A stretch of DNA of 64,000 bases. It comes from Nocardioidaceae bacterium (GTDB taxonomy: Bacteria > Actinomycetota > Actinomycetes > Propionibacteriales > Nocardioidaceae). The notes below the pieces were generated by a model, which saw only the letters and a program-made list of their open reading frames with translations, did no database searches and was not told the origin of the DNA. The DNA lies in contig CP076053.1 in NCBI GenBank assembly GCA_018672315.1, forward strand, positions 2,219,827-2,283,826, in the 5' to 3' direction. Positions 57,578-61,821 of the stretch are shown piece after piece; position 1 is the stretch's first letter, and every line of letters begins with the position of its first letter. The position numbers and the translations under genes were made by a program.

Positions 57578-59268
<1,691 letters not shown>

Positions 59269-59270
59269 CC

Positions 59271-59648
59271 GTGGCGGGAGACCTCGGGCCCGACTACGGC
59301 CACGACCGGGACCGGCGTCAGCGGCGCCGCAGGCTCGTCGGGCTCGTGCTGTTCGTGCTCGGCTGCCTGCTCGCCGGTCTCGGGGTCGGTGGTCTCCTGC
59401 CCGGCCGCGACGTGCCGCTCGCTGACCTGCCGGCCGAGCAGGTCCAGCGCGCCGTGGTCTTCCTCGCGGTCGGACTCCTCACGGCGGCGGGCGCGGTGTG
59501 GCTGATGGTGACCGGCTCCCAGGGGGGCGTCAGCGGCTTCTCCGCAGGCGAGAACGCACGGCGCCGACGGTGCCGCGCGTGCGACACCATGAATCCCTGG
59601 CACGCCGCGGTGTGCACGGCGTGCGGGCAACGGCTGCACGGAGTCTGA
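59271..59648 (+). CDS. Two-helix membrane protein with C-terminal zinc ribbon (2 of 3)
   Basis: 125 residues with a basic start, two helices (LVGLVLFVLGCLLAGLGVGGLL, VFLAVGLLTAAGAVWLMV) and the zinc ribbon CRACDTMNPWHAAVCTACG. Both it and copy 1 have SGFxxGE-like words before the ribbon, pointing to common origin. GTG at 59271, two bases after the stop of copy 1. Confidence 0.8.
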   Translation: MAGDLGPDYGHDRDRRQRRRRLVGLVLFVLGCLLAGLGVGGLLPGRDVPLADLPAEQVQRAVVFLAVGLLTAAGAVWLMVTGSQGGVSGFSAGENARRRRCRACDTMNPWHAAVCTACGQRLHGV

Positions 59649-59673
59649 GGTCCCGGCGGCGTACGCTCGAGCG

Positions 59674-60012
59674 GTGGAGGATCGAGCCGTGAGGGGCGCC
59701 GCTGTCTGGTGGCGTGTCGGGTGCGCTCTGGCAGCCCTGCTGGGTGCGTACCTGCTGATCAGTGGACTCGTGCGGATCACCGGGGACGGTGCCGTGGGCG
59801 GTCCGCTCGCGCGGTTGCTGGTCGGGCTGGTGCTGCTGTCCGCCGCCGCCGTGGCGTACGCCATCGGTCGTCGCCGCCCGGACCGCCCTGCGGGCCAGCC
59901 GACGTCGGCGCGTGCCGACGACGCGGCGGAGACGGTGACCTGTCCCGCCTGCGGGTCGGTCAACCCGCCGAGCAGGCAGCACTGCCTGCGGTGCGACCAG
60001 GCGCTGAGGTGA
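59674..60012 (+). CDS. Two-helix membrane protein with C-terminal zinc ribbon (3 of 3)
   Basis: 112 residues: two helices (CALAALLGAYLLISGLV, RLLVGLVLLSAAAVAYAIG) and the zinc ribbon CPACGSVNPPSRQHCLRCD. GTG start at 59674 with TACGCT six bases upstream (own leaderless promoter). The stop overlaps the GNAT gene start as GTGA. Confidence 0.8.
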   Translation: MEDRAVRGAAVWWRVGCALAALLGAYLLISGLVRITGDGAVGGPLARLLVGLVLLSAAAVAYAIGRRRPDRPAGQPTSARADDAAETVTCPACGSVNPPSRQHCLRCDQALR

Positions 60013-60491: not shown

Positions 60492-60503
60492 GCGCCCTGA
60501 CTC

Positions 60504-60577
60504 GCATGTAACCCCATGTTGTGGCCGCTCCGCGCGGCGCCGGGGCCGTGCGGAGCAACCACAGCGCCGTCGGAGTC
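60504..60577. repeat. Left 74-bp inverted repeat of the 60.5-61.8 kb unit
   Basis: 74 bp beginning GCATGTAACCCCATGTTGTG and ending CGCCGTCGGAGTC. It matches the reverse complement of 61734-61807 at 66 of 74 positions (eight mismatches by my alignment). It also holds an internal near-palindrome (GTTGTGG...GCTCCGCGCGGC with its complement), so a strong hairpin can form; it may terminate the GNAT operon. Confidence 0.9.
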
Positions 60578-60704
60578 GGCTCTCCCGGTCACCAGGGCGC
60601 GCCGACCGGGCCGGTTGTCGCCCCGGCACACCGGTGCAGCGCGTTGTCCACCGGCGCGTACGGCCCGCCTGGTCGTCGTGGCACCGCCGGAGAACCCTGC
60701 GGGC

Positions 60705-61718
60705 ATGCGACCACGACTCATGGCACACGCCCTCCGTCAGCACGGACTCGTCACGCGCAATCAGGCTTTGCGCTCCGGCTACTCCGCGAGCGAGGTGCGC
60801 GCCCTGACGGGGAGGGGGACCTGGCACACCGTCCGCCGAGGCGTGTACGCCGAGCGCACCCTCTGGGAGCAGTTCGACCGCGACGAGATGGACCGTCGAC
60901 GGATCCTCGCCGTCTTCCTGCAGGCCGAGCAGCCGCTGTACGCCAGCCACGGCTCCGGCGGTCTGCTGCAGCACCTGGCACTGCTCGAGGTCAGCAGGCG
61001 ACGCATCCACATGACGGCGCCGAGGATCGACGCCGGGCGGGGTGAGAACGGCGTGGTCTACCACCCGGCTCGGGTCAGCGCCGTCGACACCACGACGACC
61101 CCGTTCGGCCCCGTGACGTCGGTGGCGCGGACAGTGTGCGACATCGCGCGCTACGACGGGTACGACGCGGGCATCGTCGCGGCCGATCGCGCGCTGCGGG
61201 ACGGCCTGCCGCGCGAGGAGTTGGAGCGTGTCGTGTCCGGCATGCGCAACTGGCCCGGCGTACGCGCCGTGCGTGCCGTTGTCGAGGACGCCGACCAGGG
61301 CGCCGAGAACCCGGGCGAGAGCCTGCACCGGGTCGTCATCAGCCGTCTGGGCTGGGGCCGGCCGCGCCTGCAGGTGCGCGTGACCGACGGCGGGCGCACC
61401 GCGTACGTCGACGCGATGCTCGGATGCCACGCCTTCGAGTTCGACGGCTTCGGCAAGTACGCGCGTGCCCAGACCGCGGAGACGGGAGATGCTCCCGCGA
61501 GCGTGGTCTTCGAGGAGAAGCGCCGCGAGGACTGGCTGCGGTCACGCCCCGAGATCGCGGGATTGTCACGCTCGGTCTGGGACGAGGTCTGGGAGGAGGT
61601 GCGGTGCGCCGGCGAGGGGCCGCTCCTCCGACGATTCCGTACGCAGGTCGACGCAACGATCGCACGCGTCGGCATGGCCGCGTGGATGAGCAGCCTGGAC
61701 TCCTCGACGAGGGTCTGA
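60705..61718 (+). CDS. AbiEi-like winged-helix protein with DUF559-type nuclease fold
   Basis: 337 residues. The N-terminus (HGLVTRNQALRSGYSASEVRALTGRGTWHTVRRGVY) is the AbiEi-family antitoxin-type winged helix. The C-terminus has the restriction-like core of DUF559/Vsr relatives: Asp236 (AYVDAML), Glu245 and Asp247 (FEFDG) and Lys251. No toxin partner (AbiEii) lies next to it, so antitoxin function is unproven. It is the only gene between two 74-bp inverted repeats. ATG at 60705; no ribosome binding site or -10 stands out. The 127 bases before it hold no gene. Confidence 0.8.
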   Translation: MRPRLMAHALRQHGLVTRNQALRSGYSASEVRALTGRGTWHTVRRGVYAERTLWEQFDRDEMDRRRILAVFLQAEQPLYASHGSGGLLQHLALLEVSRRRIHMTAPRIDAGRGENGVVYHPARVSAVDTTTTPFGPVTSVARTVCDIARYDGYDAGIVAADRALRDGLPREELERVVSGMRNWPGVRAVRAVVEDADQGAENPGESLHRVVISRLGWGRPRLQVRVTDGGRTAYVDAMLGCHAFEFDGFGKYARAQTAETGDAPASVVFEEKRREDWLRSRPEIAGLSRSVWDEVWEEVRCAGEGPLLRRFRTQVDATIARVGMAAWMSSLDSSTRV

Positions 61719-61733
61719 TCGGCTCAGTCGGAC

Positions 61734-61807
61734 GACTCCGACGGTGTTGTGGTGGCTCCGCGCGGCGCCGGGGCCGCGCGGAGCAACCACAACATGGGGT
61801 TACATGC
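61734..61807. repeat. Right 74-bp inverted repeat of the 60.5-61.8 kb unit
   Basis: Reverse-complement partner of 60504-60577. It begins 15 bases after the AbiEi-like gene stop and ends 14 bases before the gltA stop on the other strand, so its internal hairpin is well placed as a bidirectional terminator. No target-site duplication is visible outside the pair. Confidence 0.9.
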
Positions 61808-61821
61808 GGCGATGGGGCCGC

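Follow-up and report, generated by a model that had tools for sequence, protein, structure and literature searches.

A winged-helix, nuclease-like gene between its own palindromic repeats, a probable REP/RAYT-like mobile unit of Actinomycetes

To our knowledge, RAYT (a HUH Y1 transposase) is the sole enzyme class that owns a REP-type repeat. The REP/REPIN–RAYT systems (REPtrons) of Pseudomonas and E. coli consist of extragenic palindromes and a single gene flanked by them (PMC3116915, PMC8049555, PMC8266576). In TIRtrons, terminal inverted repeats enclose a gene, and dispersed families are known for some of these repeats; the TIRYT enzyme is a Y1 tyrosine transposase, and REPs with a CGTC tag have been reported without an enzyme (PMC3733652). 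AbiEi of the AbiE type IV toxin–antitoxin has an N-terminal winged helix and is known to bind inverted repeats (PMC3985639).

The locus described here, from a 64,000-nucleotide stretch of a Nocardioidaceae chromosome (the window), shares features with each of these systems. In common with REP/REPIN–RAYT systems it has short extragenic palindromes, some of them inverted doublets with spacers; a candidate enzyme gene flanked by its own repeats, in cognate lineage-specific pairs; and vertical inheritance with near absence from plasmids. Like a TIRtron, it places its gene between terminal inverted repeats of a dispersed family. However, RAYT is a single-tyrosine (Y1) HUH transposase acting on GTAG-tagged hairpins and TIRYT is also a Y1 enzyme, unlike the protein found here. 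Nor do the repeats carry the GTAG or CGTC tag of REPs: the heads are CATGTAAC.. / GCATGTAACCCC, GTAACGC and AATGATCACGTT. Because the Y1 HUH enzyme is missing and the tag differs, the unit is not a member of the REP/RAYT family, though it would work like one. It shares the AbiEi winged helix, but AbiE systems have AbiEii, which is lacking here, and the C-terminus is different, with residues of nuclease type; a further difference is that the gene has repeats on both sides and solo copies elsewhere.

We think it probable that the unit belongs to a REP/RAYT-like family of small, mobile palindromic repeats, of which it is the copy that bears the gene, with a winged-helix PD-(D/E)XK-like nuclease as its enzyme. 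The evidence suggests that this kind of small mobile DNA has yet to be described and uses another kind of enzyme than is known for such repeats. We found no earlier description of such gene-plus-repeat units in the open-access literature. The unit would provide a second candidate enzyme class for REP-type repeats, and many natural enzyme–repeat pairs in which to study specificity, mechanism and function. Moreover, for many proteins the annotation as type IV antitoxin, and the count as a defence gene that AbiEi models give, are probably wrong.

Architecture of the unit and its protein

The initial annotation described inverted repeats enclosing one gene, and a repeat search bears this out. Two inverted arms of 76 nt, 89% complementary and 1154 nt apart, flank a single gene of 337 residues (ATG at 60705, stop at 61718), with GNAT and citrate synthase genes as the neighbours of the unit. 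Its features are as follows.

60503 to 60578, plus strand: left arm; head GCATGTAACCCCATGTTGTGG, GC-rich hairpin and CCGTCGGAGTCG; same family at seven other genomic places
60644 to 60653, plus strand: DnaA-box-like motif TTGTCCACCG (TTRTCCACAG with one mismatch), between left arm and start codon
60705 to 61718, plus strand: gene of 337 amino acids, with an AbiEi_4 winged helix followed by a C-terminus of PD-(D/E)XK-like type
60714 to 60851, plus strand: AbiEi_4 winged-helix segment, residues 4–49 (PF13338, E=3.7e-9, above the curated cut-off)
61317 to 61526, plus strand: putative nuclease core, residues 205–274 (E205, Q223, D236, E245-x-D247-G-x-x-K251, E271-K272-x-R274), invariant or nearly so in 50 and 34 homologues; fold predicted only
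61733 to 61808, minus strand: right arm, repeating the left arm in opposite orientation

The arm head GCATGTAACCCCATGTTGTGG has exact matches at 60504 (plus strand) and 61807 (minus strand), where shuffling gives an expectation of 0. The local inverted-repeat score of the unit is 112, compared with a best score of 34 among 142 control segments, each of one kilobase, from the window. Each arm reads as head GCATGTAACCCCATG, paired TTGTGG, GC-rich stem and then CCACAACACCGTCGGAGTCG, and is predicted by folding to form a hairpin on its own (−40 and −53 kcal/mol). No U-tract follows the hairpin at either arm of the unit; CGTTTTAG is present solely at the two single copies of the family described below. 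The only open reading frame is that of the AbiEi_4 protein, and the unit holds no known transposase, DDE or other. Directly upstream of the GNAT gene (window positions 58816–60012) lie tandem small membrane-type reading frames that end in zinc-ribbon-like CxxC pairs.

The AbiEi_4 winged helix (PF13338) is present in 27 of 34 homologues, and PADLOC AbiEi models match the N-terminal part (E=6e-22). There is no adjoining gene for an AbiEii nucleotidyltransferase and no methyltransferase in the unit. Because of the missing AbiEii gene, the locus falls outside the definition of an AbiE operon in PMC3985639, and we rejected an AbiE toxin–antitoxin as its identity.

The C-terminal part is where the protein departs from AbiEi. 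Six residues are invariant in 50 homologues (E205, Q223, D236, E245, G248 and R274), and D247 and K251 are conserved in 94% and 96%. Asp236, Glu245, Asp247 and Lys251, which the initial annotation had singled out, are all at the positions it gave. The conserved residues make up a PD-(D/E)XK/Vsr/DUF559-like pattern, from which a nuclease fold is predicted. The E...Q...D...ExDG..K pattern is shared with DUF559, MTES_1575 and Vsr-type endonucleases, although the DUF559 and MTES_1575 profiles score below cut-off; E205, D236 and E245 align with the Vsr region in a comparison with E. coli Vsr that is weak and non-significant by probability. A single-sequence structure model (pLDDT 36) is useless as evidence of fold, and a search for a solved structure of a relative found none. 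We know of no association of DUF559, MTES_1575 or Vsr-type endonucleases with a repeat family, and the open-access literature yielded no such link.

Ratios of dN/dS between orthologues (0.18–0.43) indicate that the gene is under purifying selection. It has no match in phages or viral contigs and one among 72,556 plasmid records. The tatB and mrp genes also lie on that replicon (NZ_LR134451.1, Tsukamurella 'plasmid 9'), which may be chromosomal DNA under a wrong label.

The repeat family and its cognate proteins

In the complete 3.6 Mb host genome, a search anchored on the head found it 14 times at 8 places. A covariance model tolerating altered heads returned the same 8 places and no other credible match. 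Besides the unit's own arm pair, there are three inverted doublets, each spanning about 200 bp and unrelated to one another in their spacers, two perfect palindromes of 76 bp, and two single units that end in AAACGTTTTAGATG. Since the gene is at the arm pair, seven of the eight copies have no gene inside. The initial annotation had held that an element found singly after many unrelated genes would be a common terminator family and its unit not mobile. Single copies there are, yet they do not refute mobility, because a REP-like family predicts solo copies.

The head is nearly invariant among copies, and the stem gathers unpaired changes and no compensatory ones, a pattern more in keeping with a sequence recognised as DNA than with an RNA under conservation. 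We rejected a structured RNA on the lack of compensatory changes in the stem, and a known RNA family because Rfam gave no credible match. A plasmid or phage origin of the repeat was likewise set aside (one chance plasmid match, no phage matches). The host genome has no above-threshold RAYT (HUH Y1 transposase, PF01797), the best score being 12.8 bits against a cut-off of 23.

The exact head turned up no such family in other genomes: the 16-mer gave 22 isolated single matches in 84,980 species and no family, nor was it found as a family among 150 genomes of the host's taxonomic family; one genome represents the host genus. The relaxed palindrome GTAAC-N5-GTT ... AAC-N5-GTTAC, by contrast with its reversed control (0), is present in 29 of these 150 genomes, with up to 14 copies each. 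When pairs of such palindromes about 1.2 kb apart were fetched from other genomes, all seven enclosed a homologue of the unit's protein (33–39% identity).

The converse search gave the same association. Among homologue loci of the host's order picked by protein alone, 32 of 41 testable loci have inverted repeats on both sides and 9 lack clear arms; none of 142 window segments does so, and the 99% level of the swap control was 39. Outside the order, flanking inverted repeats are found at 13 of 16 homologue loci. The spacing is regular in the order, where the left arm usually ends 70–160 bp before the start codon and the right begins 0–50 bp past the stop. These inverted-arm counts are too low, because palindromic arms may also stand in direct orientation, as at Tsukamurella tyrosinosolvens WP_074851054.1. 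The host genome also holds paralogues. One (L117, G000:C1:1948073-1948990) has 124-nt arms of unrelated sequence (GAACGCCCGCGTATGCGGGCA...), and at two others (L115 and L116) the arms, at the usual spacing, are no more than weak and may have decayed; two host-genome paralogues have unrelated arms.

Arms and proteins diverge together. Eight units, drawn from six genera and three families, supplied the arms for a search of the eight genomes that carry them. Each unit's arms had 28–60 matches in their own genome, at fewer places than matches because palindromes match both strands, and among the matches listed each genome matched only its own arms. In a comparison of 56 units, the closer the proteins are in identity, the more alike are the arms (Spearman 0.28, reached in 0 of 2000 permutations), a correlation to which shared species ancestry contributes. 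Arms can be aligned only where the proteins are more than about 50% identical.

Gain, loss and setting of the repeats

Both solo repeats and whole units are absent from some related genomes. For solo repeats in two related genomes, the joined flanks are uninterrupted in congeners at most sites tested; at one example, a repeat of G141, the matching G125 site is 91% identical, and the junction of one query (L194) was not interpretable. Some empty sites retain end-like bits (CTGTGACG..ACAGG) that could be either footprint or target. For all four whole gene units tested, the joined flanks are uninterrupted in several congeners each; one of these units sits between yebC and ruvC, as named from reading the flanks. 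No target duplication is visible at the solo empty sites, and the flanks of gene units are too diverged to give exact junctions. The empty site of the G087 unit (L254, G323:C1:1572731-1573228) contains a different perfect palindrome, CCGAGTCGGCAGTAATTACTGCCGACTCGG. In G087 itself, two identical palindromes 465 bp apart (L171, G087:C21:46536 and 47001) hint that the repeat was copied along with its surroundings in a local tandem duplication.

Five orthologous copies in two species groups are all collinear with their flanks; they therefore show no inversion, and across these related species the units are inherited vertically. The initial suggestion of a minimal mobile or invertible cassette divides accordingly: mobility gains from the recurrence of the unit with its own arms and from its absence at congener sites, and invertibility loses from the collinearity of the five copies.

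Solo elements keep to particular places. By a simple gene caller, 31 of 34 over the genomes are intergenic; none of these 31 has divergent neighbours, against 9 of 46 in the window (p=0.009), and 14 have convergent ones, against 8 of 46 (p=0.011). In several cases the element's TGTAA supplies the stop codon of the neighbouring gene. Indeed, at two host-genome copies (L009 and L007; G000:C1:1925268 and 3289356) two genes stop at the TAA within the repeat's ATGTAA.

Proposed mechanism, alternatives and leader motif

We propose that the palindrome flanking the gene, specific to its lineage, is what the winged-helix, PD-(D/E)XK-like protein recognises and would nick or cut, perhaps as an extruded hairpin. 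Repeat copies, alone or as inverted doublets, would thereby spread into intergenic DNA by gene 3′ ends, so that a protein binding and cutting the arms would be the cause of their dispersal. The gene unit itself would move or be lost rarely and be inherited vertically, with selection keeping the gene, as for RAYT genes. In its broadest form, the proposal is of a new class of mobile DNA, present throughout Actinomycetes, in which a winged-helix PD-(D/E)XK nuclease, widely annotated as AbiEi antitoxin, spreads its cognate palindromes by a replication-coupled, tyrosine-independent route; we regard that extension as evenly balanced between true and false.

The arms could instead be ordinary bidirectional transcription terminators on either side of a stand-alone gene. 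Strong hairpins, solo copies beside gene 3′ ends (14 convergent and none divergent of 31) and repeats that sometimes supply a stop codon are all what terminators would give. We nevertheless find this unlikely: most of the hairpins lack a U-tract, the stem has no compensatory changes while the unpaired head is nearly invariant, and one would not expect a terminator family to accompany a single protein family throughout the class, with a sequence particular to each lineage. The hairpins may also terminate transcription, but the earlier idea of a defence gene with its own terminators gets no support from the cognate dispersal of the arms. Another reading makes the protein a transcription factor only, with the arms and solo repeats as the operators of its regulon. 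AbiEi does bind inverted repeats at its own promoter (PMC3985639) and the winged helix is conserved here. One arm, however, lies past the stop codon, solo copies stand downstream of genes and never between divergent ones, the catalytic-type E/D/E residues are invariant, and whole units are gained and lost; we judge a pure regulon as improbable as the terminators.

The unit might also hold mere cargo, a nuclease of phage-defence or restriction type lying between repeats that something else mobilises, as the PADLOC matches to the N-terminal part and the nuclease-like residues would allow. This is still harder to credit, because the unit has neither an AbiEii partner nor a methyltransferase, every lineage of the protein comes with a repeat of its own, plasmids, phages and viral contigs are all but free of the gene, and the host genome offers no above-cut-off RAYT to mobilise the repeats. 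Least credible, to the point of being very nearly dismissed, is a cassette flipped by recombination between its arms. The arms are long and inverted, but the five orthologous copies from two species groups share one orientation, and in at least one named case, Tsukamurella, the arms are direct.

Our preferred reading, a gene-bearing copy of a mobile palindromic family, has one further component in the leader of the gene. Between the left arm and the start codon, at a median of 51 bp before the ATG, lies the motif TTRTCCACAG in a single orientation, which we take to match the DnaA box of high-GC actinobacteria. At a guess, it couples gene expression to replication. With at most one mismatch, the motif is present upstream of 45 of 71 homologues, compared with 0 of 69 downstream, 0 of 71 inside the gene and 2 of 752 window tiles.
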